This document shows, in pieces, positions 23,485-29,996 of a DNA stretch of 37,628 nt; within the stretch, counting starts at the first letter, position 1; the number at the start of each line of letters is the position of its first letter. The notes under the pieces were generated by a model. The model saw nothing but the letters and a program-made list of their open reading frames with translations, was not told the origin of the DNA and ran no database searches. This stretch comes from Bacteroidales bacterium. GTDB taxonomy: Bacteria; Bacteroidota; Bacteroidia; Bacteroidales; P3. Location of the stretch: contig JAFUYA010000149.1 of the NCBI GenBank assembly GCA_017477025.1, positions 1-37,628 of the forward strand. Direction: 5' to 3'. The position numbers were made by a program, and so were the translations under genes.

Positions 23485-23492
23485 TACTTTTG
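23485..23492 (+). promoter_or_regulatory. Promoter -7 box TACTTTTG for the helix-hairpin-helix gene
   Basis: Exact match to TAnnTTTG, 33 bp before the ATG at 23526. The -33 region is a weak match. Confidence 0.55.
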
Positions 23493-23525
23493 CACTCGCG
23501 GATTTTTCAAAAAAGAAAGTTCTTC

Positions 23526-25538
23526 ATGAAACAGGCGAAACTCTTTTTTATCGTTGTACTTACTTTTCTTGCATACGGCAAACTTTATTCGCAGGTTGAA
23601 GAAGATTTGTTACAAATTATTGAGAACAGCGGGGCAAGTGAAGAACAGGCTGAGGAACTTTTGCAGATAACCGAACAGAAAAACAATAATCCTTTTAAAA
23701 TATACAATGTAAATACGTTAAGTCGGGAAGAAATGATACTTCTCGGCTTAAACAATTTTCAGATTCTTGCATTGGAAAATTATATTCTCAGAACGGGAGA
23801 ATTGTTTTCCGTCAATGAGTTGAGATTTATCAACGGTTTTGACTCCGTTACCGTCAGTCATCTTTTGCCTTTTCTGACCGCTGCACCAAGGACGGAGAAA
23901 CATTCTTTGAAACCGGATTCCGTTTTCAAAAATTCCGTAAGCACATTGAGGTTGCAATACGTTCAAAATCTGAAGACGCCTTACGGATTTACAAGACAGG
24001 ACGGCAAAGGTTTCGTGGGGGGGGGGTAATTTTGCCTCTGTTTTGCGGTACAAGCTCAAATATTACGACCGTTTGGAGTTTTCTTTGGTAGCTGATAAGG
24101 ACTTCGGCGAACCCCTCTTTATTAAAGGGAAAACGTACGGATATGATCACTACAATATTGCCTTAACTCTGAACGGTACGGGTAAATATTTAAAGCAAAT
24201 TACCATAGGTGATTATCGCCTTAACATAGGAGAGGGGCTTGCAATGAAACAAAACTTTTCTTTCGGTTATTTTTCTCCGACTTTCGGGGCAAAACAGTCA
24301 GCAAAAGAAATCGTTCCCATGCGTTCTTCACGGAATATAACTACAACAAAGGAATTGCCGCCAAGTTCAATGCAGGTAAGGTGGATATTCTTGCATTTGC
24401 TTCCTATACTCCGATTGATTACAACGGTAAAACCGTACAACAAACGGGTTACCACAGAACACAGACGGAAATAGATCATAAATATGCCACTGCCGTTGCC
24501 ATGGGTGGCAGCAGTATGCAGTATTGGAACAAAGGGTTTAATTTAGGGATAACTTTCTTTGCATATCATTACAAAGATTCCGTGTACAGAGGGCAGAGTG
24601 AGTATCAAAAATATCTCTTTGAGGGAAAAGACAACAATGTTGTTGCAGTCAATACTTCTTATGAACGGAAAAATATGATTGTTTTCGGAGAGATTGCACG
24701 CAGTATGAATAATGCGTATTCTTTTCTGTTAGGTCAGCAATATTCATTGGGTTACAGGTCGGGTTTTTCCATTGTTTTACGCAAATATTCCCCCGACTAT
24801 CAGAATGCTTATGCAAATGCCATAGGTGTCCAGTCATGTAATCGTAATGAAACGGGTGTTTATGCCGACTATTCTTATTATGTAAGCAGGAAACTGCAAT
24901 TTTCTGCAGGATTCGATATGTTTTACTTCCCCAAAGAAAGTTACAGGGCAAAAGAAAAAGCATTGGGAGAGAAATTCAGGGCTGTTTTAAGTTATCAAAT
25001 ACATGAAAAACATCTGTTGGATTTCAATTTGAGACTGCAAAACAGGCAATACAACGACAATACAAAAGATTCCGTAACGGAACTCAGTAACAATATTATC
25101 ATTCAACCGCAATTAAAATATAAATTTTCTTATTCCGAGCGATTGGCATTTGTTTATCGAATAGGTTATTCGCACACCTTTATCGGGGATGCCGACAACG
25201 ATTACGGATTTTATAACTATGTTGAGATGATATTACGTGCAAAAAAATTACCGTTGGATTTTAATTTGCGATGGACGTATTTCAGAACAACATCGTATGA
25301 CAATCGTTTCTACGTTTATGAATATTCTCTGCCGATGTCATATTCCTCAGCCATGTTGTACAACACCGGTAATAAATTATATGTAATGTTGGGCGGGAGT
25401 TTATCAAAGAATTGGAAAATATATCTTCGTTATAATCTGACACGTTACAACAATACAAAAGAAATCTCAAGCGGCAATACAAAAATCACAGGCAATCTGC
25501 AACATTATGCAGGAGGGCAGATTTTTTATAAATTCTGA
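23526..25538 (+). pseudogene. Helix-hairpin-helix outer-membrane-type protein, out of frame at a poly-G tract
   Basis: The ATG at 23526 opens a signal peptide (KQAKLFFIVVLTFLAYGKLYSQ) and a helix-hairpin-helix region at about residues 60-110 (IYNVNTLSREEMILLGLNNFQILALENYILRTG, then LFSVNELRFINGFDS). The frame stops at 24027 just after ten G. With nine or twelve G it would continue as VGGGNFASVLRYKLKYYDRLEFSL, DKDFGEPLF and IGDYRLNIGEGLAMKQ, a long beta-strand-rich part like the ComEA-like Bacteroidota outer-membrane proteins. A second break lies near 24330: inserting one base between TCTTCA and CGG would join IVPMRSS to TEYNYNKGIAAKF and VDILAFASYT, and the last frame runs to the stop at 25538. 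So at least two frame changes are needed for a product of about 670 residues. The first fits phase variation; the second suggests decay or a sequence error. Confidence 0.7.
24017..24026 (+). repeat. Run of 10 G inside the helix-hairpin-helix gene
   Basis: Ten G following TTTCGT. The zero frame reaches TAA immediately after the tract; loss of one G (or gain of two) opens the downstream frame. This is a likely contingency tract in the OFF state as written. Confidence 0.85.
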
Positions 25539-25754: not shown

Positions 25755-27845
25755 ATGAACTATATAGAAGAAGGCGTAAAAAGAAAACTGGTTAATTTTG
25801 ACTCTGAACAAAGAAAACAAATAACATTTCTTCATCAGAATGTTAAGCGTAATTATACACAACCTGAAATAAAAGTTCAAACGGAGGCTTTTTTGCGACT
25901 TATTATTGATTACGGATATTCAGAAAAAAGAATTAAGCAGTTTGTTCCCGTTACAATGGGCAGAGATATTAAGGAAGCGGACATTATAGTTTATAATGAT
26001 GATGAATGTTCGCAACCTTATATTGTTATTGAATGTAAAAAACAGGATATAACCGATGCAGAATTTAATCAAGCGGTGAATCAAGCTTTTTCTTATGCCT
26101 ATGCTTTGGCTGGAAGCATAAAATACATTTGGGTTACTAATGAAATAAAGAATGCTTACTACAAAGTAGATAAAAACTCTGATGAAAAGGAGACTATACC
26201 AAATATTCCGAAATGCGGAAGCAACGAAATTCTGAAATATTTATATGTTAAGGGGGGGGGAAAGGGTGATAACGGATATTTTGATTTGCGGACAATAACG
26301 GAGGATGAATTGACGAAAATATTTCAGGCTATACATCAATTGCTTTGGGACGGAGGAAAGAGAGATGAAAGCGAAGCTTTTGATGAATTTGATAAGGTTT
26401 TATTTTGTAAGATGTGGGACGAAAGAGCCGCAAGGAAGACCGGTGAACCGTATTCGTTTCAATTTTACAAGGAAGATGAACCCGAAGAAAAACTTTATAA
26501 AAGGATAATCAGCATTTACGGGCAAGGAAGACGCAAAGATGCTAATGTATTTTCGGATGATATAAAAATAGATGTACAGGAATTGTCAGAAATAGCCCGT
26601 TACTTGCAGGGAATAAATTTGAGTGCTACAGATTTGGATAGTAAGGGTAAGGCCTTTGAAACTTTTATGGGCGGATTGTTCAGAGGCAAGTTCGGAGCAT
26701 TCTTTACTCCGCGTCCTGTGGTAAAATTTATCGTTGATGTCTTGCCTATCAAAAATGACTCTAAAGTATTGGACACTTCATGCGGTAGCGGTGGATTTTT
26801 ATTGTATGCATTGGATAAAGTACGACATCTTGCAAAAGAATATTATGAAGAAGGGACAATAGAGCATTTCCGTTTCTGGCATGACTTTGCAGAAAAGAAT
26901 CTTTTCGGTATAGAGATAAGCAATAAAATTTCCCGTACGGCAAAAATGAATATGATTATTCATGATGACGGTCATACGAATGTTATTCAGAGCGACGGTT
27001 TGGTAACGGAAAAAGATTTGAGGAATAAAAATAAAGGATTTCAATATGGAACATTTGATTTTATAATTACTAATCCTCCTTTCGGTTCGGAAATAAAACA
27101 AACAAAGAATGCTTATTTCAGTTTATACAAGGTTGCACATAAACAGGTTGATTGGTTGGATATGGATGGTAAAGAAACTCTCCGTAATGCTCAAAGTACG
27201 GAAGTTATGTTTATAGAACAGGATTACCGTTTTTTGCGAGAAGGAGGTATTCTTGCCATAGTCGTTCCTGACGGAATATTGACAAATTCTTCCTTGCAAT
27301 ATTTCCGCAATCAGATAGAGGAGTGGTTTCGTATCGTTGCCGTTGTATCTTTACCTCAGACAACATTTACTGCTACGGGTGCGGGAGTAAAATCTTCGGT
27401 ATTGTTCCTTAAGAAATGGAACCTATCCCAAACCGATGATATAATCAATAAGAAAGGTGAAATAAAGCAGGAATTATTATCTTCCTTTGAATACGAATGG
27501 AAACTTAAAGAATGGGAAAAGACGAAAAAAGAGTTGCAAAAGAAGAAGATAGAAGAATTAAAAACTATATTATTAGTAAATTCGGTTGCCGAGGTAAAGA
27601 AATCCGAAGAATATAGGAAGTTTAATGATAAACTTAATGAGGACTTTGCCGAAAAGATTGCAAGCCTTAAAGATGATTTGAGGCGGAAGTATATTTACGA
27701 ACAAAAGAAAAGACTTTTGGATTATCCTATTTTTATGGCAATAGCGGAACAAATAGGATATGATGCCACAGGTAAAAAGATTCCTCAAAATGATTTGATA
27801 ATGATAAGCGAAGAGTTAAAGAAGTTTATTGAAAATTTGGAATAA
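25755..27845 (+). CDS. Fused nuclease-methylase subunit of a type I-like / BcgI-like restriction-modification system
   Basis: A 696-residue protein. Residues about 1-160 look like the HsdR N-terminal PD-(D/E)xK nuclease domain: EADIIVY (Asp76) and YIVIECKKQ (Glu93, Lys95). Residues about 270-560 are an N6-adenine methyltransferase with the helical N-terminal part, SAM motif VLDTSCGSGGFLLYAL (from about residue 339) and catalytic TNPPF (Asn440). The C-terminus is charged and helical. The specificity subunit is encoded downstream, and no translocase (HsdR helicase) gene is present, so the layout resembles BcgI-type enzymes in which one subunit cuts and modifies and another reads the DNA. A plain methylase with an inactive nuclease-like domain is also possible. 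A run of nine G at codons 166-169 lies at the boundary between the two domains and is in frame here (ON). Confidence 0.85.
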   Translation: MNYIEEGVKRKLVNFDSEQRKQITFLHQNVKRNYTQPEIKVQTEAFLRLIIDYGYSEKRIKQFVPVTMGRDIKEADIIVYNDDECSQPYIVIECKKQDITDAEFNQAVNQAFSYAYALAGSIKYIWVTNEIKNAYYKVDKNSDEKETIPNIPKCGSNEILKYLYVKGGGKGDNGYFDLRTITEDELTKIFQAIHQLLWDGGKRDESEAFDEFDKVLFCKMWDERAARKTGEPYSFQFYKEDEPEEKLYKRIISIYGQGRRKDANVFSDDIKIDVQELSEIARYLQGINLSATDLDSKGKAFETFMGGLFRGKFGAFFTPRPVVKFIVDVLPIKNDSKVLDTSCGSGGFLLYALDKVRHLAKEYYEEGTIEHFRFWHDFAEKNLFGIEISNKISRTAKMNMIIHDDGHTNVIQSDGLVTEKDLRNKNKGFQYGTFDFIITNPPFGSEIKQTKNAYFSLYKVAHKQVDWLDMDGKETLRNAQSTEVMFIEQDYRFLREGGILAIVVPDGILTNSSLQYFRNQIEEWFRIVAVVSLPQTTFTATGAGVKSSVLFLKKWNLSQTDDIINKKGEIKQELLSSFEYEWKLKEWEKTKKELQKKKIEELKTILLVNSVAEVKKSEEYRKFNDKLNEDFAEKIASLKDDLRRKYIYEQKKRLLDYPIFMAIAEQIGYDATGKKIPQNDLIMISEELKKFIENLE
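26252..26260 (+). repeat. Run of 9 G inside the nuclease-methylase gene
   Basis: Nine G encode the end of Lys166 and Gly167-169 in VKGGGKGDNG. With ten G the frame meets TGA a few codons later; with eight G it meets TAA near 26300. Either change would leave only the nuclease-like domain and remove the methylase. The tract therefore acts as a possible on/off switch, ON as written. Confidence 0.85.
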
Positions 27846-27877: not shown

Positions 27878-28682
27878 ATGCAAGCAACAAACTTAATAAT
27901 ATATAAGTCGGAGAACAGAAATATCAGTGTTCAAGTGCAGTATGAAGACGGTACTTTTTGGCTTACACAAAAACGTATGGCGGAATTATACGGAGTAGAA
28001 TCCAACACGATAACATATCATCTGCAAGAGATTTGTAAAAACGGAGAATTGCAACATGAAGCAACTGCTCGAAAAATTAGAGTAGTTCAAAAGGAAGGGA
28101 ACCGCGATGTTTCGCGTAATTTAGACTTCTATAATTTGGATGCAATAATTGCTGTCGGTTACCGTGTCAATTCCTTTCAGGCTACAAAGTTCAGAATATG
28201 GGCAACGCAAACATTGAAAGAATATATTGTTAAAGGTTTTGTGTTAGATGATGAACGCTTAAAACAAGGCAAAGATTTCGGTAAGGATTATTTCCGTGAG
28301 TTATTGGAGCGTGTGCGTTCAATCCGTGCAAGTGAAAGAAGAATCTGGCAACAGATTACTGACATATATGCCGAATGCAGTACGGATTATAACAAAAACT
28401 CTCCGACAACGAAAGATTTTTATGCAATGATTCAAAACAAGTTTCATTATGCAATAGCAGGACAAACTGCAACCGAAATTATCTATCACAATGCAGGAAT
28501 TTGCAGCAAGTGTCAATGAGTTTCTTTCGTTCCATAAATTTAAGGTATTAAAAAATAAAGACAGCGTTTCAAGACAACAAGCCATTGAGAAATCAGAACA
28601 AGAATACGATATATTTAATAAAACCCAAAAGATAGAATCGGATTTTGACAAACAAGTAAAACAACTACAACAAAAATTATAA
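27878..28682 (+). pseudogene. RhuM family gene with internal deletion and frame break
   Basis: The first frame (27878-28519) reads as a RhuM protein: IYKSENRNISVQVQYEDGTFWLTQKRMAELYGVESNTITYHLQEI, FYNLDAIIAVGYRVNSFQATKFRIWATQTLKEYIVKGF, then the C-terminal FHYAIAGQTATEIIYHNA. Normal family members continue with about 60-80 residues that are absent here. The second frame (from about 28491) resumes with the family C-terminus: VNEFLSFHKFKVLKNKDSVSRQQAIEKSEQEYDIFNK and IESDFDKQVKQL. The join near 28495 has lost the middle and shifted frame, so the gene is probably broken. RhuM genes are often passengers in type I restriction-modification operons, and their function there is not settled. It follows the methylase gene by 32 bp and precedes the S gene by 6 bp. 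Confidence 0.75.
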
Positions 28683-28688
28683 ACGTGT

Positions 28689-29996
28689 ATGGCTTATACT
28701 TTACCCAAACATATAGATTCAAATAAAATCTTTCTTGTAAATAAAAAAGATATTGAAGGAAGTTTCCACCCAGAGTATTATAATTACGGAATGACGCAAA
28801 TTATTAATAAATTGAAAAGTCTGCATAAGATTGAAAGACTGTGTGATGTTGCAAATTTTTCAAGAGAGATTACAACAAATATTAATGATGGTGTATATAT
28901 AGGGTTAGAAAATATTGAGAGTAATACAGGAGATTATATAAGCACAGACACAAAACAAAGTATATCATCTGCAAATGTTTTTGCAAAAAATTCTATCTTA
29001 TTTCCTAAATTAAGACCTTATTTAAATAAGGTATATTTTGCAGACCTTAACGGTATATGTTCTACGGAGTTCATGGTAATCAATGCTCACAAATTATTAC
29101 CTGAATTTTTAGCCATTTATCTACGTTCAAATATTATATTAAGTCAAACCGTTCATATGATGACAGGCAATACATTACCGAGATTACAAACTGAAGATAT
29201 TTATAATCTACCTGTACCTATATTAAGTAAAGACAAACAACAGCAAATAATAGATTTATATAACACCGCTTATAATCAAAAGAAAGCAAAGGAACAACAA
29301 GCAAAAGAATTACTTTCATCTATTGATGACTATCTATTAAACGAACTTGGAATTACTTTACCGAATATAGATAATTCACTTCCTTCAAGAATATTTATTG
29401 TTAATAGCAAAGAAATTTCCAATAGTAGATTTGACCCGAAATGTGTTTTATTTTTAGGACATAAAATGAAAAGTTGTATTTATGATAATATACAACTTAA
29501 AGATATAACATTTATTCGAAAAGGTTCTGCCATAACAAGTAATGAAATTGATATTAACGGGATATATCCTGTCATTGCCGGGGGACAGACAAGTCCTTAT
29601 AATCATAATAAATATAATTATAAAGGCAATGTGATAACTATTAGTGCTTCTGGAGCATATGCTGGATATGTTTGGTATCATAAAAATCCTATATTTGCAT
29701 CTGATTGCAGCGTCATATATTCAAAAGAAGAAAATAGTTTTTGTACAAGATATATTTTTGAAGTTTTAAAAGCACAGCAAAATCATATATACCTCCTTCA
29801 AACAGGAGCAGGACAACCTCATGTTTATCCTGATGATTTGGCAAAACTTTGGATACCTATTGTAACGTTAGAAAAACAAAAAGAGATTGCAGATCATATA
29901 ACAGAGATAAGGCAAAAAGCAAAACAATTACAAGAAGAAGCAAAACAATTACTTCAACAAACTAAAACAGAAATAGAGCAAATGATTTTAGAGTAG
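28689..29996 (+). CDS. hsdS: Type I restriction-modification specificity subunit (HsdS)
   Basis: A 435-residue protein with two target-recognition domains, each followed by a coiled coil: TRD1 about residues 1-185 (VANFSREITTNINDGVYIGLENIE, FPKLRPYLNKVYFADLNGICSTEFMVI, MTGNTLPRLQTEDIYNLPVPIL), coil 1 about 190-225 (KQQQIIDLYNTAYNQKKAKEQQAKELL), TRD2 about 230-395 (ITFIRKGSAITSNEIDINGIYPVIAGGQTSPYNHNKYNYKGNVITISASGAYAGYVWYH, TGAGQPHVYPDDLAKLWIPIV) and coil 2 to the end. It determines the DNA sequence read by the nuclease-methylase. The last coil has a perfect heptad-length repeat (AAGCAAAACAATTAC at 29917-29931 and 29938-29952, period 21 bp). It ends the operon before a convergent terminator. 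Confidence 0.9.
   Translation: MAYTLPKHIDSNKIFLVNKKDIEGSFHPEYYNYGMTQIINKLKSLHKIERLCDVANFSREITTNINDGVYIGLENIESNTGDYISTDTKQSISSANVFAKNSILFPKLRPYLNKVYFADLNGICSTEFMVINAHKLLPEFLAIYLRSNIILSQTVHMMTGNTLPRLQTEDIYNLPVPILSKDKQQQIIDLYNTAYNQKKAKEQQAKELLSSIDDYLLNELGITLPNIDNSLPSRIFIVNSKEISNSRFDPKCVLFLGHKMKSCIYDNIQLKDITFIRKGSAITSNEIDINGIYPVIAGGQTSPYNHNKYNYKGNVITISASGAYAGYVWYHKNPIFASDCSVIYSKEENSFCTRYIFEVLKAQQNHIYLLQTGAGQPHVYPDDLAKLWIPIVTLEKQKEIADHITEIRQKAKQLQEEAKQLLQQTKTEIEQMILE

Follow-up and report, generated by a model that had tools for sequence, protein, structure and literature searches.

Type IIB restriction enzymes of the BcgI and BsaXI kind are built as an RM fusion, with an N-terminal PD-(D/E)xK nuclease, a helical connector and an adenine methylase in one chain, accompanied by a separate specificity protein, S. 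BsaXI forms an (RM)2S assembly in which recognition is supplied by S, and the residues E73, D90, E105 and K107 of its nuclease domain are required for cutting (PMC11997821). Single-chain RMS forms are also found among the Type IIB enzymes (PMC11997821). A phase-variable precedent exists in the BcgI-like pair HP1471/HP1472 of Helicobacter pylori (PMC3936762, PMC4209511). Both this pair and JHP1364/JHP1365 carry a tract of 13-14 G in the S gene, and the corrected JHP1364/JHP1365 system brings about TCAN6TRG methylation (PMC3936762). In mice, colonisation was affected by mutation of HP1471 (PMC4209511). ON/OFF tracts are known from Type IIG enzymes as well (PMC3936762).

The locus analysed here lies in a stretch of 37,628 nucleotides from a Bacteroidales bacterium (contig JAFUYA010000149.1), referred to below as the window; its features are on the forward strand unless stated otherwise. 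An RM gene at 25755-27845, encoding 696 aa, shares the domain order of BsaXI and BcgI, and a separate S gene is present at 28689-29996. In contrast to these enzymes, however, the RM gene of the window has a poly-G tract of nine G in the linker between nuclease and methylase (26252-26260), and its product is a predicted enzyme. It is also shorter than BsaXI (696 versus 916 aa), with an identity of about 23-25% in structure alignments. The tract is probably a slipped-strand phase-variation switch of a Type IIB-like RM enzyme acting with a separate S protein.

Control by a coding poly-G tract in a BcgI-like RM and S pair is shared with HP1471/HP1472 (JHP1364/JHP1365, Hpy99XXII). There, the tract lies between the two recognition domains of S and may alter specificity, whereas the tract of the window, being in RM between nuclease and methylase, should give a plain ON/OFF response. 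In the Type IIG enzymes (H. pylori JHP1272/HP1353-HP1354), too, a homopolymer in a fused R-M gene toggles the enzyme, but recognition resides in the same chain and a second tract alters specificity. Phase-variable Type IIB restriction is thus already known in H. pylori; what differs here is the position of the tract, in the RM linker, and the host. With this locus, such control would reach beyond Helicobacter to a lineage of Bacteroidales that is uncultured.

A fused nuclease and methylase with a separate S gene

The N-terminal part of the RM protein is a nuclease domain of about residues 1-155 (25755-26219), which is supported by a Pfam match to HSDR_N_2 (67.6 bits, residues 47-152), by conservation and by a fold match. 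The helical connector and the N6-adenine methylase follow at 26277-27842, with a Pfam match to N6_Mtase at residues 295-618 and an NPPF motif at residues 440-443. Of 80 sequences compared, 79-80 share this motif and the residues P37, E38, D76, E93, K95, Q110 and Y114. E93 and K95 enclose C94 in an E-C-K motif, and D76, E93 and K95 match the pattern of the cutting residues of BsaXI, whereas the counterpart of BsaXI E73 in the protein of the window was not placed with certainty.

A full-length AlphaFold model is of moderate quality (pLDDT 75.5), with residues 161-174 of the linker as the longest stretch below 50. BsaXI is the best match of this model in Foldseek, as it is the top match by sequence. 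With VIA-align, three BsaXI entries align at Z 26-30 over residues 5-695, at a high rmsd because the domains are displaced. Modelled alone, the nuclease domain reaches a pLDDT of 92.6, and its top three Foldseek matches are BsaXI, followed by restriction-endonuclease-like folds; a phmmer search of the same domain against the PDB gave no meaningful match. The PD-(D/E)xK-like character that the first-pass annotation had given to this domain is therefore upheld by the conserved residues and by the match to the BsaXI nuclease fold.

The S protein of 435 aa contains two Methylase_S stretches. Nuclease and methylase are in one chain, the PD-(D/E)xK residues are present, S has two recognition domains, and no HsdR, the subunit expected in a Type I operon, was found among the window neighbours with Pfam or NCBIfam. 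Since an RM and S pair stands without HsdR at the locus, the layout is that of a BcgI-type Type IIB system and not of Type I. Sequence and model together favour a Type IIB-like enzyme of the BcgI/BsaXI kind.

A different view would be that the protein is a methylase that only modifies, or one of a Type I-like kind, with an HSDR_N domain that does not cut, so that the tract switches methylation only. The name of HSDR_N_2 does derive from the HsdR of Type I systems, and the genome has an HsdR-like gene; this sole match, however, is on another contig (C30). Six of the seven listed neighbouring ORFs of at least 850 aa (all but that of L117) were scanned with Pfam and contain no HsdR either. Together with the near-invariance of the catalytic-type residues and with a nearest solved relative, BsaXI, that is a cutting enzyme, this makes the loss of cutting improbable. 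Membership of a MADS-type defence system was considered on the grounds that the best NCBIfam matches are MAD2 (270.8 bits) for the methylase and MAD5 (73.7 bits) for S, and that in MADS, too, a protein with an HSDR_N-like part and an N6 methylase goes together with one that resembles S. Yet these scores are far below the curated cut-offs (720 for MAD2 and 400 for MAD5), and no further MAD protein is found among the seven window proteins scanned. MADS is therefore not claimed; score and absent partners rule it out for practical purposes, and we regard it as extremely improbable.

Between RM and S lies a broken gene of the RhuM family (27878-28519), with an internal deletion of 191 bp relative to an intact copy of 331 aa in the nearest relative. 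RhuM-like genes are present near 9 of the 80 homologous systems. Among the 80 homologous loci, 75 have a separate S-like gene; in two more, S and RM form single chains of 1206 aa (L109, 1506-5126) and 1171 aa (L117, 4001-7516). A protein of about 490-510 aa often accompanies these systems, and two copies that were scanned have no Pfam match. It is encoded between RM and S in L058 (6163-7689) and about 20 other loci, and after S in L074 (7596-9125).

Reading frames at the tract

The tract reads AAG GGG GGG GGA, that is K-G-G-G at residues 165-168, its first G being the third base of the lysine codon; residues 166-168 fall in the low-confidence linker. In the assembly the gene is in frame, hence ON, but the assembly is a draft metagenome of 156 contigs and the length of nine G may be off by one. 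Frame shifts of +1, -1, -2 and +2 give products of 171, 180, 170 and 181 aa, respectively. A TGA at 26267-26269, 6 nt past the tract, closes the +1 and -2 frames (171 and 170 aa), and a TAA at 26296-26298, 35 nt past the tract, closes the -1 and +2 frames (180 and 181 aa). The annotation made from the letters had placed nine G between the two domains, with a stop within about 50 bases after a one-base change and a truncated product that keeps the nuclease domain only. The position of the tract is exact, the Pfam domains bracket it, and both stops and the removal of the methylase agree with that description.

We infer enzyme activity, as well as changes of tract length in the cells. With nine G, or with lengths that differ from nine by multiples of three, full RM would be made and would join S in a complex that methylates and cuts. 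With other lengths, translation would end at one of the two stops and only the nuclease domain of about 170-181 aa would be made, so that methylation and restriction would be lost together. Because recognition comes from S within the RM-S complex, a free nuclease domain of this size should be target-less, and by analogy with BsaXI it is presumably inert.

The first-pass annotation had supposed that switching could need a safety mechanism, as the nuclease part would stay. This idea finds no support in the Type IIB layout: nuclease and methylase are in one chain and the OFF state should lose both, and therefore a dedicated safety device would not seem to be required. The delicate moment would instead be the return to ON with unmethylated sites, which is common to any phase-variable R-M system. 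The cells may benefit from a barrier against phage and foreign DNA that varies, and possibly from altered gene expression through switched methylation, the phasevarion of the first-pass annotation.

An in-frame TTG occurs at 26286-26288, beside the stops at 26267 and 26296. It could be imagined that re-initiation at this codon yields a methylase without nuclease that acts with S and only modifies, in which case the tract would toggle between cut-and-modify and modify-only and not between ON and OFF; we hold this to be very unlikely. The locus also holds a caution for metagenomics, namely that a seeming R-M pseudogene may be an OFF state.

Poly-G tracts in the gene, the genome and the genus

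Nine overlapping GGGGGGGG matches, belonging to three tracts, occur in the window against 0.15 expected. In the whole genome (2.39 Mb), there are 23 runs of six G, two of seven, six of eight and 21 of at least nine. The last figure counts distinct tracts of 9-11 G, merged from 35 overlapping matches. The long tracts constitute a population of their own, since a steady decay from six to seven G would predict almost none of at least nine. In the neighbouring genes, GGG makes up about 7% of the glycine codons, and synonymous recoding of the RM gene with local codon usage produced a run of at least nine G in 0.17% of trials (P=0.0017). The tract in the RM gene is not a chance product.

The second tract of the window, ten G at 24017-24026, is outside the R-M system and leaves its gene frameshifted, in the OFF position, in the assembly. 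This gene is split into an ORF at 23490-24029 and shifted frames at 24043-24474 and 24381-25538. It lies 2 kb upstream of the RM gene and is apparently a phase-variable gene in its OFF state. The third tract, 11 G on the reverse strand at 759-769, is likewise outside the system and directly upstream of a TonB-dependent-receptor-like gene, where it is possibly a promoter or start-region switch.

Twenty genomic tracts were inspected. Seven are inside in-frame ORFs and four, including that at 24017-24026, clearly split ORFs out of frame; others directly precede a gene, are intergenic or lie close to the end of a gene. The families that can be named in or near tracts include acyltransferase 3, sulfatase, hexapeptide acetyltransferase, ATP-grasp and TonB-receptor-like. 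Tracts both in and out of frame in genes of a surface or glycan type are the picture expected of a phase-variable genome.

Tracts of at least nine G are found in 12 of the 14 genomes of the genus. Across its species, the number of 9-G matches varies widely, with none in G008 and G009 and upwards of 80 overlapping ones in G002. Loss of MutS was considered as the source of so many tracts; mutS is present in the genus, and therefore a loss of mismatch repair is not their cause. The best-known phase variation in Bacteroides is DNA inversion, whereas this genus of Bacteroidales appears to make wide use of poly-G slippage.

Homologous loci and a second linker tract

The nearest relative, of 64% identity, comes from a roe deer rumen Bacteroidales (RGIG5007, JAFVBA010000003); its genes follow the same order, and the tract is missing. 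Searches across the genus, family and order led to other species alone, each with one genome. No run of at least six G is present in the linker of any other homologue, and a G/C run of at least eight in the gene is absent from 79 of the 80 homologues. Relatives on plasmids all have less than 60% identity, and the one on a viral contig has no G/C run of at least seven in its RM gene.

The exception is Anaerosolibacter carboniphilus DSM 103526, a member of the Bacillota (L074), with ten G at gene positions 593-602, or about codons 198-201. This tract is situated about 30 residues further on than that of the window and is still between nuclease and methylase, and frame shifts lead to stops at 202-209 aa. 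In its genome of 5.2 Mb, there are only two tracts of at least nine G. It is an independent tract and suggests convergence, although by the codon usage of the gene itself the run has a P of about 0.04, less improbable than the tract of the window, which tempers the case. With this second tract, the junction of R and M in the linker is suggested as a place where such switches recur.

Variation of tract length among relatives, named in the earlier annotation as a check on the proposed switch, was looked for in other species with a divided outcome: the lack of a tract in 79 of 80 homologues counts against it, whereas one member of the Bacillota carries a tract of its own between the two domains. 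The central claim, that the R-M gene is phase-variable by a poly-G run separating its nuclease from its methylase, is supported by the excess of tracts and the frame outcomes, with slippage as the proposed means.

The same comparison bears on whether the run could be a neutral accident, that is, a hypermutable run in a genome that tolerates poly-G, without a selected role in switching. In its favour, the tract occurs in none of the other Bacteroidales homologues inspected, the linker is variable and often glycine-rich (KGG), which makes it an easy seed for G runs, and some tracts of the genome are intergenic. On the other hand, tracts of at least nine G are far above the prediction from the decay between six and seven G, several are in typical contingency-type genes, and the homologue of a Bacillota has an independent one between its nuclease and methylase. 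A neutral origin is therefore unlikely, and the slipped-strand switch is retained as the probable reading.

Two further loci were set aside in this comparison. One RM gene split in its methylase half (G063) was tried as an OFF state and rejected; it is taken as an ordinary broken gene because its locus is without a G/C run of at least seven. Another (L168) was not accepted as truncated, since its reading frame is still open where the retrieved sequence ends.

Some homologous systems have features of a different kind in their S genes. In Bacteroidales Kf353_bin105 (L103), the S gene and an S fragment in the opposite orientation share a perfect inverted repeat of 61 bp (6929-6989/8225-8285), and this locus is a candidate for an invertible specificity gene. 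In Capnocytophaga leadbetteri (L102, 7763-9031), an inverted S fragment with an inverted repeat of 68 nt, of 82% identity, adjoins a gene that, judged by eye, resembles a serine recombinase, and here too inversion of S is a candidate.
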